A stretch of 17,660 nucleotides of DNA, taken from Candidatus Rokuibacteriota bacterium (GTDB taxonomy: Bacteria; Methylomirabilota; Methylomirabilia; Rokubacteriales; JACPHL01). Every line of letters starts with the position of its first letter. Position 1 is the stretch's first letter. The stretch is from the NCBI GenBank assembly GCA_016188625.1, contig JACPHL010000005.1, positions 1-17,660 on the forward strand, in the 5' to 3' direction. Made by a program: the position numbers and the translations under genes. This document shows, piece by piece, positions 3,021-14,669 of this stretch. The notes beneath the pieces were generated by a model. The model worked only from the letters and a program-made list of their open reading frames with translations. It searched no databases and was not told the origin of the DNA.

Positions 3021-4385
3021 GTGCCGGGGAACCTCGACCTCAAGACGCTGGCGGAGCTCGTCCGTCAGGGCGAGATCGACACCGTCCTCACCGTCTTCCC
3101 CGATCTCCAGGGCCGGCTCATGGGCAAGCGGGTGGTGGGGCGCTACTTCCTCGACCACGTGGCCGAGGAGGCGATCCACGCCTGCGCCTACCTCTTCACC
3201 GTCGATGTGGACATGGAGCCGCTGCCCGGGTACAAGTTCGCCTCCTGGCGGACCGGGTACCAGGATGTGAAGGCGGTGCCGGACCTCGGCACCCTCAGGC
3301 GGATCCCCTGGCTCCCGAAGACCGCCCTGGTCTTCTGCGACGTCTTTACCGAGGAGGGCGAGCCGGTGGAGATCGCCCCGCGCACCATCTTGAGGCGCCA
3401 GGTGGAGCGGGCGCGGGAGGCCGGCTTCCGGGTCATGATGGGCTCGGAGCTGGAGTTCTACCTCTTCCGGGAGGGCTTCGAGGCCGCCCGCGCCAAGCGC
3501 TACCACGACCTCGTTCCCTTCTCGCAGTACCTCGAGGACTACCACATCCTCCAGACCACGAAGGAGGAGGCGGTCATCCGGGAGATCCGGAACGCGATGG
3601 AGGGGGCCGCGGTGCCGGTGGAGTTCTCGAAGGGGGAGTGGGGGTGCGGCCAGGAGGAGATCAACCTCCGCTACGCCGAGGCCCTGGAGATGGCCGACCG
3701 CCACACCCTCTACAAGCACGGGGTGAAGGAGATCGCCCACGCCCACGGGATGGCCGTGACCTTCATGGCCAAGTACGACATGGCCGCCGCAGGCTCCTCC
3801 TTCCACCTCCACTCGAGCCTCTGGGACGCCCAGGGGAAGCGGAACCTCTTCTCCGAGAGGGGCAAGCGCTCAGGCTCGGCGCTCTTCCGCCACTGGCTCG
3901 CGGGACAGACGGCCCTCGCCCGCGAGCTCGCCTACTTCTACGCCCCCTACGTCAACTCCTACAAGCGCTACCAGGCCGGCTCCTTCGCCCCCACCCGGAT
4001 CGTGGCCGGGTGGGACAACCGGACCTGCGGCTTCCGGCTCTGCGGGGAAGGGCAGGGATTCCGGGTGGAGAACCGGATCCCCGGGGCGGACGCCAACCCC
4101 TACCTGGCCTTCGCCGCCACCATCGCGGCCGGGCTCCACGGGATCGCCAAGAAGCTCGACCCGCCCCCCCTCTACGAGGGGAGCGCCTACGACGACCCCG
4201 GCCTCCCCGAGGTCCCGAAGACCCTCCGGGAGGCGATCGAGGCGCTGGAGGGCTCGAAGGTGGCCCGCGAGGCCTTCGGCCAGGAGGCGGTCGAGCACTA
4301 CCTCCACACGGCGCGCCTCGAGCAGGAGGCCTTCGACAAGGCCGTCACCTGCTGGGAGCTCATGCGCAACTTCGAGCGGATCTGA
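3021..4385 (+). CDS. Glutamine synthetase family protein (GlnA/PuuA-like ligase)
   Basis: The 454-aa length and motifs fit the type I glutamine synthetase fold. A beta-grasp N-domain contains DLQGRLMGKR (28-37), metal-binding Glu143 and Glu145 are in SELEFYLF, and Glu206 and Glu213 are in GEWGCGQEEINL. His262 is in GSSFHLHSSL, followed by NSYKR (312-316), NR (333-334), and RVENRIPGADANPYLAF (348-364). The family makes gamma-glutamyl amides with ATP. The DGSS loop that helps bind ammonium in true GlnA is not found; the corresponding region reads ACAYLFTVDVD (54-64). This points to a PuuA-like enzyme that glutamylates an amine rather than ammonium, which is my inference. No adenylylation-type tyrosine motif is visible. 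It starts at GTG 3021, with GAGG at 3008-3011. The SDR gene follows after 10 bases, suggesting an operon. Confidence 0.88.
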   Translation: MPGNLDLKTLAELVRQGEIDTVLTVFPDLQGRLMGKRVVGRYFLDHVAEEAIHACAYLFTVDVDMEPLPGYKFASWRTGYQDVKAVPDLGTLRRIPWLPKTALVFCDVFTEEGEPVEIAPRTILRRQVERAREAGFRVMMGSELEFYLFREGFEAARAKRYHDLVPFSQYLEDYHILQTTKEEAVIREIRNAMEGAAVPVEFSKGEWGCGQEEINLRYAEALEMADRHTLYKHGVKEIAHAHGMAVTFMAKYDMAAAGSSFHLHSSLWDAQGKRNLFSERGKRSGSALFRHWLAGQTALARELAYFYAPYVNSYKRYQAGSFAPTRIVAGWDNRTCGFRLCGEGQGFRVENRIPGADANPYLAFAATIAAGLHGIAKKLDPPPLYEGSAYDDPGLPEVPKTLREAIEALEGSKVAREAFGQEAVEHYLHTARLEQEAFDKAVTCWELMRNFERI

Positions 4386-9458: not shown

Positions 9459-12041
9459 ATGAGCCATCCCGAGCTGACCCCCATGATGCGCCAGTACCGG
9501 GAGTGGAAGCGCCAGCACCCCGATTGCCTGCTCCTCTTCCGCCTCGGCGACTTCTACGAGCTGTTCTTCGACGACGCCGTCGTCGCCAGCCGCGTCCTTG
9601 AGATCGCCCTGACCTCCCGCCAGAAGGGGGAGGGGAAGATCCCCATGGCCGGGGTCCCCCACCACGCCGTGGACGGGTACGTGGGGCGCCTCCTCAAGGC
9701 CGGCCACAAGGTGGCCATCTGCGACCAGGTCGAGGCCCCGGGGGCGGGGAAACGGCTCATCCGCCGCGAGGTGGTCCGGCTGATCACGCCGGGGACCGTG
9801 ACCGATCCCCAGCTGCTCGACCGGGGGGCCAACAATTTCCTCTGCGCCCTCTACCCGGCCCGCGACGGCCTGGGCGCGGCCCTCATCGACGTCACCACCG
9901 CCGACTTCCTGGTCGGGGAGGAGCCCAGCCGGGAGGGGCTCCTGGCGACCGTCCTGCTCCGCCGGCCGGCCGAGGTCCTGCTGCCGGCCTCGTCGAAGGA
10001 CGAGCCCCTCCTCGCCGCCCTGCGGGAGGCAGGGACCCCGGTGACCTTCCGCGAGCCGGCGACCTTCGAGCTCCGTCCCGCGGTCGAGCTCCTCCAGCGC
10101 CACTTCGGCGTCGTCGCCCTGGAGGGGCTGGGGCTCGGGGGCCTGAGCTGGGGCCTCCAGGCCGCCGCCGCGGCCCTCGCCTACCTCGCCGAGACCCAGC
10201 GGGTCCCCCTCGTCCACCTCACCCGGGTCCAGCGCCTCTCCCGGGCCGATCACCTCGTCCTCGACGACACCACGGTCCGGAACCTCGAGCTCCTGGAGAC
10301 CCTCGAGGAGCGCGCGGTCCGGGGCTCCCTCCTCTGGGCCCTCGACCAGACCGTGACCGCCATGGGGAGGCGCCTGCTCCGCGCCTGGCTCCTCCGACCG
10401 CTCCTCGACCCGGCGGCGATCGCCCGCCGTCTCGATGCCGTCCAGGAGCTGATGGAGGCCCCGCTCCTCCGGGAGGCGATCCGGGAGGCCCTCGGGGAGG
10501 TGGGGGACCTGGAGCGGCTGGCCAGCCGGGTCGCCCTCGGGGTGGCCACCCCCCGCGACCTCGTCGGGCTCAGGAGCGGGCTCCGCCCGCTCCCGGCCCT
10601 CCGGGAGCGCCTGGCGGAGGTCGCGGCCGCGCTCCTCGCCGGGACGGCGGCGGGGCTCGAGGACCTCGGTGAGCTCCGCCGGCTGCTCGAGGACGCCCTG
10701 GTGGACGACCCGCCCATCACCGCCCACGAGGGCCACCTGATCCGGGAGGGCTTCAGCGCGGAGCTGGCGGCCCTGCGGGCGGAGATCCACGAGGCCAAGG
10801 CCTGGATCGCCGGCCTGGAGGCGCGGGAGCGGGCGCGCACCGGCATCCCGACCCTCCGCGTCCGGTTCAACCGCGTCTTCGGCTACTCCATCGAGGTCTC
10901 CAAGACGCACCTCAAGCAGGTCCCCGACGACTACATCCGCCGCCAGACCCTGGTGGGGGCGGAGCGCTTCGTCACCCCCGAGCTCAAGGAGTACGAGGCC
11001 ACGGTGCTCGGCGCCGAGGAGCGCACCCATCGGCTCGAGTACGAGCTGTTCGAAGGGGTCCGGCAGAAGGCTCAGCAGGAGGCCGAGCGGATCCTCCGGA
11101 CGGCCCGCGCCGTGGCCGCCATCGACCTCCTGGCCGGCCTGGCCCGGCTCGCCCACGAGCGGGGGTACACGCGCCCCGAGGTCCATGCGGGGGAGGAGCT
11201 TCAGATCCTCGACGGCCGCCACCCGGTCCTCGAGCGGGAGCCCACCGGGCCGGGCTTCGTCCCCAACGACCTCGCCCTCGACGGCCGGGAGGTCCAGTGC
11301 CTGATCCTCACCGGCCCGAACATGGCCGGCAAGTCCACCTACATGCGTCAGGCGGCCCTGATCGTCCTCATGGCGCAGATGGGGAGCTTCGTCCCGGCCC
11401 GGCAGGCGCGGGTCGGGGCCGTGGACCGGATCTTCACCCGGATCGGAGCCCGGGACAACCTCCTCAAGGGCCGGAGCACGTTCCTCCAGGAGATGACGGA
11501 GACCGCGGTCATCCTGCGGCACGCGACGCCCCGGAGCCTGATCCTCCTCGACGAGATCGGGCGGGGAACCTCGACCTTCGACGGCCTGGCGATCGCCTGG
11601 GCCGTGGCCGAGTACCTCCATGAGCGCTGCCCGGGGGCCAAGGTCCTCTTCGCCACCCACTACCACGAGCTGACGCGCCTGGCCGCCGAGCTGCCGCGGG
11701 TCCGGAACGTCCACGTCGCGGTGCGCGAGTGGCACGAGGAGATCATCTTCCTCCACAAGGTGCGGCCGGGGGGCACGGACCGGAGCTACGGGATCCAGGT
11801 GGCCCGGCTGGCCGGCCTCCCCCCCGAGGTCCTCGCCCGCGCCAGGGCCCTGCTCGCCGAGCTCGAGGAGGCCGGCCCACGCGTCGTCCCCGCCGAGCCG
11901 ACCCCCCAGCTCGCGCTCTTCCCCCCCACCCCGCACCCGGTGCTGGAAACCCTCGCAGGCCTGGACCTCGACCGGCTCACCCCGCTCGAGGCCCTCACGA
12001 CCCTCCACGCCCTCCAGGTCAGGCTCAAGTCCGGCCCGTGA
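9459..12041 (+). CDS. mutS: DNA mismatch repair protein MutS
   Basis: The 860-aa full-length MutS has the mismatch-reading Phe-x-Glu motif in DFYELF (F32, E34), connector and lever domains, then the ATPase. The ATPase shows Walker A GPNMAGKST (619-627), the signature-type segment GRSTFLQEMTET, Walker B LLDEIGRGTSTFDG with Asp698 and Glu699, and ATHYHELT. It binds mispaired DNA as a dimer and recruits MutL. The C-terminus ends in the usual LTPLEALTTLHALQ helix. The ATG at 9459 has only a weak upstream purine stretch; the family N-terminus (LTPMMRQYREWK) supports this start. It is the first gene of a compact mutS-mutL-miaA-hflX run, and its stop overlaps the mutL start by 4 bases (GTGA). Confidence 0.97.
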   Translation: MSHPELTPMMRQYREWKRQHPDCLLLFRLGDFYELFFDDAVVASRVLEIALTSRQKGEGKIPMAGVPHHAVDGYVGRLLKAGHKVAICDQVEAPGAGKRLIRREVVRLITPGTVTDPQLLDRGANNFLCALYPARDGLGAALIDVTTADFLVGEEPSREGLLATVLLRRPAEVLLPASSKDEPLLAALREAGTPVTFREPATFELRPAVELLQRHFGVVALEGLGLGGLSWGLQAAAAALAYLAETQRVPLVHLTRVQRLSRADHLVLDDTTVRNLELLETLEERAVRGSLLWALDQTVTAMGRRLLRAWLLRPLLDPAAIARRLDAVQELMEAPLLREAIREALGEVGDLERLASRVALGVATPRDLVGLRSGLRPLPALRERLAEVAAALLAGTAAGLEDLGELRRLLEDALVDDPPITAHEGHLIREGFSAELAALRAEIHEAKAWIAGLEARERARTGIPTLRVRFNRVFGYSIEVSKTHLKQVPDDYIRRQTLVGAERFVTPELKEYEATVLGAEERTHRLEYELFEGVRQKAQQEAERILRTARAVAAIDLLAGLARLAHERGYTRPEVHAGEELQILDGRHPVLEREPTGPGFVPNDLALDGREVQCLILTGPNMAGKSTYMRQAALIVLMAQMGSFVPARQARVGAVDRIFTRIGARDNLLKGRSTFLQEMTETAVILRHATPRSLILLDEIGRGTSTFDGLAIAWAVAEYLHERCPGAKVLFATHYHELTRLAAELPRVRNVHVAVREWHEEIIFLHKVRPGGTDRSYGIQVARLAGLPPEVLARARALLAELEEAGPRVVPAEPTPQLALFPPTPHPVLETLAGLDLDRLTPLEALTTLHALQVRLKSGP

Positions 12042-13714
12042 CCCGCATCCGGATCCTCCCGGCCGCCCTCGTCAACAAGATCGCCGCGGGCGAGGTGGTC
12101 GAGCGCCCGGCCTCGGTGGTCAAGGAGCTCGTCGAGAACAGCCTCGACGCCGGGGCCGAGCGGATCGTGGTGGAGGTCCGGGGAGCGGGGCGACAGCTCA
12201 TCCGGGTCGCCGACGACGGCCACGGGATGACCCGGGAGGAGTGCCTCCTGGCGCTTCAGCGGCACGCCACCTCCAAGATCGGGCTGGAGGAGGACCTGGC
12301 GGCGATCCAGACCCTCGGCTTCCGGGGGGAGGCCCTCCCGGCCATCTTCGCGGTCTCGCGCCTTCTGCTCCTCTCCACGGTGCCGGGCGCGGCGGGGGGG
12401 ACCCTCGTCCGGGGCGAGGGCGGGCGGGTCGCGGAGGTCCTGGAGGCCGACGGACCGGTGGGGACGAGCGCGGAGGTCCGCGACCTCTTCTTCAACACCC
12501 CGGCCCGGCTGAAGTTCCTCAAGAGCCCCCCGACCGAGCAGGCGGCGATCGCGCGGACGGTCACCCAGCTCGCCCTGGCCCACCCGGGCTGCCACGTCCG
12601 CCTGGTGAGCAACGAGCGCACCCTCCTGAACGCCCCGCGGGCCCGGACCCTGCGGGACCGCCTGGGGGCGCTCTACGGCTTCGGGGTGGCCGCCCGGCTC
12701 CTCGAGGTCCTGGGGGAGGCCGGGGAGGCCCGCCTGGAGGGGTTGATCTCGCCGCCCCAGATCAGCCGGACGCATCGCGAGGAGATCGCCCTGGTCGTCA
12801 ACGGCCGGCCGGTCCGCGACACCCTCTTGACGCAGGCGCTGCTGGAGGCCTACCGGCCGCTCCTGCCCCGGGACCACTTCCCCCTGGCCCTCCTCGTCCT
12901 GACCCTCCCGCCCTCTCAGCTGGACATCAACGTCCACCCGACGAAGGCGTGGGTCCGCTTCCGCCAGCCCCGGCATCTCCACGACCTCGTCCACGGCGCG
13001 GTGAGCGCGGCGCTCCGCCGGCTCGAGGCCGTCCCGGCCCGGGCGGTCTCGCTCCCGGCAGCGGGGGCGGCCGAGCCCGGGGCGGCGCCTGCGGCCGCGG
13101 CGGCGATGGGTCTCCAGGCCTCGCTCTTCCGCGAGGAGGAGGCCGCCTACGGCGCGGGCCGTCTCTTCGGCGAGCCGGTCGGCCAGATCGAGGAGACCTT
13201 CATCGTCGCCTACACGGCCGAGGAGGTCTTCTTCGTGGACCAGCACGTGGCCCACGAGCGGGTCCTCTTCGAGCGGCTCCGGACGGACCTGGAGGCCGGC
13301 CCGCTGGCGGGGCAGGAGCTCCTCTTCCCGCAGCCCCTCGAGCTCGCCCCGGCCCGTCGCGAGCTCCTCGAGGCCTGGCTCCCCGCCCTCGGCAGGCTCG
13401 GGTTCAGCCTCGAGAGCTTCGGTGGCACCACCCTCCTCATCCGGAGTGTCCCCTCCCTCCTCCGGGACGACGACCCCCAGCGGCTCGTGGACGACCTGGT
13501 CGGAGAGCTCCCGCCCGGGGAGGCCCAGGTCTCCCCCGCGGCGCTCGACCGGCTGCTCGCCTTCGTGGCGTGCCGGGCGGCGATCAAGGCGTTTCTCACC
13601 ACGCGCGTCGGCGACGCCGCGTTTTTCGTCGGCATCGCGATTCTCTACAGCGCGACCGGCTGTCTGACGTTTCGGGATATCACCATCAAGCGGGACCTGC
13701 GCCGTGACTGGTGA
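12038..13714 (+). CDS. mutL: DNA mismatch repair protein MutL with an aberrant C-terminus
   Basis: The GTG at 12038 overlaps the mutS stop. The 558-aa protein has a complete GHKL ATPase domain: Glu30 and Asn34 in KELVENSLDAGA, DDGHGM (59-64), RHATSKI, and GFRGEAL (94-100). The C-domain carries the endonuclease motif DQHVAHERVLFE (401-412) and the ACR motif (511-513), so it is of the nicking MutL type that works without MutH. After CRAAIKA (512-518) the expected ~50 residues with CPHGRP do not follow. Instead KAFLTTRVGD (517-526) and onward to TGCLTFRD (540-547) resemble the complex I subunit NuoL. This tail uses TTT, ATT, TGT and GAT codons that are rare elsewhere in the window. Other frames contain no CPHGRP either. 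Zinc binding, and hence nuclease function, may be impaired. Replacement, recombination or an assembly error are all possible. Confidence 0.93.
   Translation: MTRIRILPAALVNKIAAGEVVERPASVVKELVENSLDAGAERIVVEVRGAGRQLIRVADDGHGMTREECLLALQRHATSKIGLEEDLAAIQTLGFRGEALPAIFAVSRLLLLSTVPGAAGGTLVRGEGGRVAEVLEADGPVGTSAEVRDLFFNTPARLKFLKSPPTEQAAIARTVTQLALAHPGCHVRLVSNERTLLNAPRARTLRDRLGALYGFGVAARLLEVLGEAGEARLEGLISPPQISRTHREEIALVVNGRPVRDTLLTQALLEAYRPLLPRDHFPLALLVLTLPPSQLDINVHPTKAWVRFRQPRHLHDLVHGAVSAALRRLEAVPARAVSLPAAGAAEPGAAPAAAAAMGLQASLFREEEAAYGAGRLFGEPVGQIEETFIVAYTAEEVFFVDQHVAHERVLFERLRTDLEAGPLAGQELLFPQPLELAPARRELLEAWLPALGRLGFSLESFGGTTLLIRSVPSLLRDDDPQRLVDDLVGELPPGEAQVSPAALDRLLAFVACRAAIKAFLTTRVGDAAFFVGIAILYSATGCLTFRDITIKRDLRRDW
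13583..13678 (+). other. NuoL-like segment inside the 3' end of mutL
   Basis: Residues 516-547 of the MutL frame read like the NuoL/NdhF motif region: E. coli NuoL, from memory, has AAMKAF..TRVGD and then a hydrophobic helix ending G-T-L-N-F-R-E. The window has AAIKAF, TRVGD at the same spacing, a hydrophobic stretch, and CLTFRD. The join falls where both families contain A-x-K-A, so short shared sequence could have guided a recombination or a mis-assembly. The DNA here is visibly less GC-rich than its flanks. Confidence 0.55.
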
Positions 13715-14669
13715 GGGGGTCACGACGGGGCCCCGCGTCGAGCCGCTGCTCGCCCTCGTCGGGCCGACCGGGGTGGGGAAGACCGCGCTGGCGGTCCGAC
13801 TCGCCCGGGAGTGGGCGATGGAGGTGGTGAGCGTGGACTCCCGCCAGGTCTACCGGCGGATGGACATCGGGACCGGCAAGCCGACGCCGGAGGAGCGGGC
13901 CGCGGTCCCCCATCACCTCCTCGACGTGGTGGAGCCGGACGCGCGCTACGACGCGGCCCGGTTCGCCCGCGACGCCGCCGAGGCGATCCGGGGGATCCGG
14001 GCGCGGGGACGCCTGCCGGTCCTGGTAGGGGGGACCGGGCTCTACCTCCGGGCCTTCCTCCGCGGCCTGGCCCCGGTTCCGGGCCGGGATCCCGCCTTCC
14101 GGGCGGCCCTCGCCGAGCGGGCCCGCCGCGAGGGCCCGGCGTCCCTCCACGCCGAGCTGGCCGCGATCGACCCGGAGCGCGCGGCCCGGATCCACCCCCA
14201 CGACCTCGTCCGGATCAGCCGCGCCCTGGAGATCCATCGCGCCAGCGGCGAGCCCCCGAGCCGGCTCCTGGCCTGGCGGCGGACCGTCCCCGGGGAGGGG
14301 GTCCTCGTCCTGGGCCTGACGGTGCCGCGGTCCCGGCTCTACGCGCGTCTCGAGGCGCGGGTCGAGGCCATGCTCGCCCGGGGGCTCCTCGAGGAGGTCC
14401 GGGGGCTGCTCCGGGCGGGGTTCTCCCCGGAGCTCCCGGCCCTCCAGGGGATCGGCTACCGGCACATGGCCGCGGTCCTGGCCGGGCGGCTCCCGCTGGG
14501 CGAGGCCATCCGGGCGATGAAGCGGGACACCCGGCGCTACGCCAAGCGGCAGTGGGCCTGGTTCGCCCGCGAGCCCGGGGTGCTCTGGGTCGAGGTCGAG
14601 CCCGATGACCCCGAGGGGGCCGTGAAGGCGGTCCGCGCCCAGGTTGAAGCCGCGGGGATTTTCCCGTAG
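13704..14669 (+). CDS. miaA: tRNA dimethylallyltransferase MiaA
   Basis: The 321-aa protein has the P-loop GPTGVGKT (20-27), the substrate motif DSRQVYRRMDIGTGKP (45-60), GGTGLYLRA (109-117), GIGYRHM, and TRRYAKRQWAWF (276-287). It transfers a dimethylallyl group to adenosine-37 of tRNAs that read codons starting with U, in the cytoplasm. Length and motif order are those of the family. The GTG at 13704 overlaps the end of mutL by 11 bases, which fits translational coupling; the conserved P-loop starts about 20 residues in, as expected. miaA after mutL and before hflX is a common bacterial order, so the right flank of the odd mutL end is in its normal context. Confidence 0.96.
   Translation: MTGEGVTTGPRVEPLLALVGPTGVGKTALAVRLAREWAMEVVSVDSRQVYRRMDIGTGKPTPEERAAVPHHLLDVVEPDARYDAARFARDAAEAIRGIRARGRLPVLVGGTGLYLRAFLRGLAPVPGRDPAFRAALAERARREGPASLHAELAAIDPERAARIHPHDLVRISRALEIHRASGEPPSRLLAWRRTVPGEGVLVLGLTVPRSRLYARLEARVEAMLARGLLEEVRGLLRAGFSPELPALQGIGYRHMAAVLAGRLPLGEAIRAMKRDTRRYAKRQWAWFAREPGVLWVEVEPDDPEGAVKAVRAQVEAAGIFP

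Follow-up and report, generated by a model that had tools for sequence, protein, structure and literature searches.

Introduction

In the Aquifex MutL protein, changing the histidine of the CPHGRP motif abolishes nuclease activity (PMC2744016), and in Thermus, a MutL changed at the arginine of the same motif leaves a hypermutator uncured (PMC10366529). A short foreign patch can replace native sequence, with short shared sequence at the join, by short-patch double illegitimate recombination (SPDIR; 2016, as outlined in PMC7192050 and PMC6321871). Local assembly errors that damage protein-coding genes also occur in draft metagenome assemblies, with 13 recorded in one 1.13-Mb genome (PMC7111523). 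Here, we examine a mutL gene in which a stretch resembling NuoL lies where CPHGRP is expected. The window (the whole stretch of DNA analysed, 17,660 nt) is contig C321 of a draft genome of 2.6 Mb, 84.5% complete and split into 344 contigs, which, judging from its fragmentation, is presumably a metagenome-assembled genome.

Results

The gene order mutS-mutL-miaA-hflX is conserved when compared with a relative, bearing out a sequence-only reading of this DNA that had placed mutS and mutL upstream and miaA downstream in normal order. The features of the locus are as follows.

9459 to 12041, + strand: mutS, intact, upstream neighbour (68% identity to the mutL-adjacent mutS of G003, the nearest relative)
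12038 to 13714, + strand: mutL, whole open reading frame
12038 to 13591, + strand: native mutL, from the start to ACRAAIKA, including the DQHVAHERVLFE and ACR motifs (G003 identity, profile matches, alignment)
13577 to 13591, + strand: left join, GCGGCGATCAAGGCG (AAIKA), of a coding type found in both mutL and nuoL (nucleotide runs shared with L022, L103 and L080/L135)
about 13592 to 13684, + strand: foreign NuoL-like patch, FLTTRVGDAAFFVGIAILYSATGCLTFRDIT (TIGR01974 and PF00361 matches; no CPHGRP, compared with 26 relatives)
13685 to 13714, + strand: native mutL end, IKRDLRRDW and stop (relatives of the order end alike, e.g. IKRELRRTW and stop)
13704 to 14669, + strand: miaA, intact, overlapping the mutL stop (60% identity to the mutL-adjacent miaA of G003)

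Elsewhere in the window, a CsgG-like gene near the contig end (16032-17180) has GC3 below that of other genes over long stretches, and over its C-terminal part no alignment with the counterpart in G003 is obtained.

The first 518 residues of the protein are ordinary MutL, with the DQHxAHERxxxE and ACR motifs in the alignment with G003, and residues 4-522 are 69% identical to G003 MutL. A profile search recognizes the N-terminal ATPase region (TIGR00585, E 1.4e-149), and the MutL_C domain PF08676 matches residues 381-518 (E 1.1e-35). The DQHA(X)2E(X)4E motif is present as DQHVAHERVLFE, with V in place of A, as is also the case in G003, and the ACR motif is present as ACRAAIKA at 13568-13591. 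After this point the similarity to MutL is interrupted. The patch shares 4-6 of 30 alignment columns with G003, whereas the lowest identity outside it is 12/30 in mutS, 9/30 in miaA and 10/30 in the rest of mutL, the last in a variable linker.

The sequence-only reading had described a NuoL-like stretch after the ACR motif, and profile searches agree: the 46-residue MutL tail matches positions 165-201 of TIGR01974 (E 4.8e-8) and also PF00361 (E 2.8e-6), and, with the whole MutL as query, the NuoL genes of more than 25 relatives of the order match the patch stretch. The likeness of residues 519-548 to NuoL is far above chance. The match is to a fragment, at 32.4 bits compared with a TIGR01974 cut-off of 407.5 and confined to positions 165-201 of 630, and is not that of a full member of the family.

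In order to establish what the end of MutL normally looks like, we compared the 26 relatives of the order with readable ends, the family being represented here by this one genome. CPHGRP is encoded in all 26 and is absent from the consensus here, just as the sequence-only reading had stated for the region after ACRAAIKA; the tail is therefore rejected as a normal end of the lineage. From the ACR motif to the stop there are 168 nt in these relatives (one has one extra codon) compared with 144 nt here. The patch is approximately 31 codons (~93 nt) long, its last codon (T) being assignable to either side of the right join, and it sits where approximately 39 MutL residues (~117 nt), CPHGRP among them, would be expected. 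It is in frame at both ends, and the internal swap from ~117 to ~93 nt leaves the gene 24 nt shorter. The C-terminus as a whole had been thought to be replaced. However, the last nine codons, IKRDLRRDW followed by the stop, are the ordinary MutL end of the order, so that the foreign stretch is internal. The change is an internal, in-frame replacement of ~39 residues by ~31 and not a new C-terminus. The original observation was real but incomplete and is confirmed in part, and its interpretation is likewise supported in part.

A join at a shared A-x-K-A sequence had also been proposed, and the nucleotide comparison upholds it. At the left join, 15 nt are identical to the mutL of L022, and runs of 14-17 nt that extend into the patch are identical to the nuoL of L103 and of L080/L135. 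The A-A-I-K-A coding tract is common to mutL and nuoL genes; among the sequences compared, some actual genes of the two kinds agree in up to 15-16 nt at the left join. The reported shift in codon usage and composition fared less well. The patch does have lower GC (62% compared with 75%) and GC3 (80% compared with 97%), but GC3 is equally low in 5 of 502 30-codon windows of the contig; composition is therefore weak evidence of foreignness, and we rejected it as proof of foreign origin.

A suggested source was the nuoL of the same genome. Its two nuoL genes (on C238 and C257) show 35-40% protein identity to the patch and no DNA match, which rules them out as the donor. None of the 94 other genomes of the phylum (95 genomes in total) has a match to the patch at E 1e-8. 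Among the matches listed, the nearest NuoL is from Chloroflexota, at up to 74%, and no near-identical donor is found among those listed from GTDB contigs. Nor did one appear in 400 genomes from the phylum of a Chloroflexota match, in 396 genomes from one class of that phylum, or in 396 genomes from the phylum of G043. No patch donor was found in viral contigs (24-mer search) or plasmids. The native mutL tail was not found elsewhere in the assembly; a weak match to it on C36 sits among unrelated genes and was judged to be spurious.

We assessed the reliability of the draft by setting approximately 0.45 Mb of it against over 1 Mb from the relative G028, using BLAST in one direction; gene segments that had a counterpart came to approximately 178 kb. 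Split-gene candidates whose length was unchanged overall probably reflect antisense reading frames and were left out. An in-frame scan did not flag mutL, the positive control, owing to a right flank of only nine residues, indicating that the scan would miss patches near gene ends. Local breaks affect five genes in the ~178 kb compared.

rho: -67 nt, frameshift, profile positions 230-251; L231 (G000:C272), about 8180, + strand (named by profile)
tsf (EF-Ts): -136 nt, frameshift; L228 (G000:C241), about 14941, - strand (named by profile)
ispG: +11 nt near-tandem duplication (GGTGGGCCCCGGGTGGGCC), frameshift; L228 (G000:C241), about 8486, - strand (named by profile)
TonB-dependent receptor gene: about -106 nt, frameshift; L277 (G000:C11), about 6474, + strand (named by eye)
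era: in-frame loss of 20-21 residues between DTPG and NKVD; L233 (G000:C282), about 3430-3640, - strand (named by profile)

In era, which encodes the sole Era copy of the draft genome, DTPG and NKxD are 45 residues apart compared with 65-66 in 13 relatives. In most bacteria, Rho, EF-Ts, IspG and Era are indispensable or almost indispensable. Therefore, the breaks in these four genes can hardly all be true, single copy being established for era only. In the reciprocal test, no frame-changing break in G028 passed the same filter. The losses in the other broken genes, at approximately 60-136 nt, are comparable to the 117 nt lost in mutL. Breaks occur approximately once in every 36 kb of the gene sequence compared, a rate at which finding one in a 17.7-kb window would be unremarkable.

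Discussion

We consider it very probable that the mutL patch arose through a local assembly error in a metagenome-type draft, with a nuoL stretch that came from another organism. The mutL of the real genome would most likely end normally, with CPHGRP followed by IKRDLRRDW. The consensus would have lost approximately 117 native nt from between AAIKA and IKRDL, probably at a place of poor read support, and the gap may have been bridged by ~93 nt of nuoL from another, presumably co-occurring organism, the foreign sequence having entered via the shared A-A-I-K-A coding tract. An assembly chimera was one of the options in the sequence-only reading, and it is strongly favoured because rho, tsf, ispG and era are locally broken in the same draft. 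It is further supported by a loss in mutL similar in size to the other breaks, by a patch that is not intragenomic, by a left join at a shared tract, and by the normal MutL end in all readable relatives of the order. Three observations count against it. Only mutL has a foreign insert, whereas the other five genes have simply lost sequence or, in one case, gained a duplication; the frame is kept at both joins, which on this reading would be partly luck (a chance of about one in three at the right join); and the left-join tract that known genes have in common is 16 nt at most, under the usual smallest k-mer of assemblers.

The same mosaic could conceivably have arisen by SPDIR in nature, in a population of this uncultured lineage, a ~90-nt piece of nuoL from another phylum having replaced the CPHGRP site after a short single strand of foreign DNA had paired with the native sequence at AAIKA and close to IKR. 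The MutL endonuclease would then probably be lost, and the lineage would be a mutator. Consistent with such an event are the shortness of the foreign patch, the join at a short tract of mutL and nuoL, and the preservation of frame at both ends in an otherwise intact locus; the process has already been described, in the outline available from PMC7192050, and nuclease or repair function depends on CPHGRP (PMC2744016, PMC10366529). Nevertheless, the draft has been shown to be unreliable over lengths of this order, the change would need to have become fixed in the sampled population despite disabled mismatch repair, and the searches made found no donor. We regard this course of events as quite improbable, and a real recombination scar at mutL as unlikely. 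If true, it would be a natural case of cross-phylum short-patch recombination that disarms mismatch repair.

Little credence can be given to a chimera formed in the library or during amplification, in which template switching at the shared tract would leave a chimeric molecule in a thinly covered consensus. Although the left join, with its shared tract, fits, and the visible result would be identical to that of an assembly error, two switches within ~93 nt of one molecule would be needed, and the simple loss of sequence from rho, tsf and era would be left unexplained. As for a functional new MutL C-terminus of the lineage, raised as an option by the sequence-only reading, the frame is open and the native last residues are retained, but the proposal is contradicted by the normal, CPHGRP-containing end of all 26 readable relatives and by the very retention of the native last nine codons. 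Moreover, in the patch a fragment of a membrane-protein family (PF00361) takes the place of the metal-site motif, and no second genome of the taxonomic family lends support. We give this proposal virtually no weight.

Read as an assembly error, the contig would be uninformative on MutL function or mutator state, and an artefact of this kind would serve as a warning, given that the representative genome of the species appears to be locally wrong in several essential genes. Some such errors are in frame and hence invisible to gene callers. The proteins of this draft would be unsuited as evidence for lost genes, new domains or a mutator state unless reads are checked.

Set against known systems, the protein corresponds to the MutL endonuclease (TIGR00585, PF08676) in everything up to ACRAAIKA and in its last nine residues, and differs in a consensus that lacks CPHGRP and ~33 surrounding residues. 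The patch resembles NuoL and the proton-pumping antiporter family (TIGR01974, PF00361) over ~37 of 630 positions, in the right order and frame, yet it is a fragment and not a NuoL protein. With SPDIR, as far as PMC7192050 and PMC6321871 present it, the locus shares the replacement of native sequence by a short foreign patch and the short shared sequence at the join; unlike the events outlined there, the mutL case yielded no donor in the searches made, lies in a draft with other local errors and is known from the consensus alone. Compared with the local errors in metagenome-assembled genomes described by Chen et al. 2020 (PMC7111523), whose defining sign is the lack of perfect read support, the mutL case is distinguished by the presence of a foreign gene stretch. 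The two are alike in having a short wrong stretch in an otherwise correct contig, in the corruption of a protein-coding gene, and in the recurrence of such errors at several places in one draft genome.
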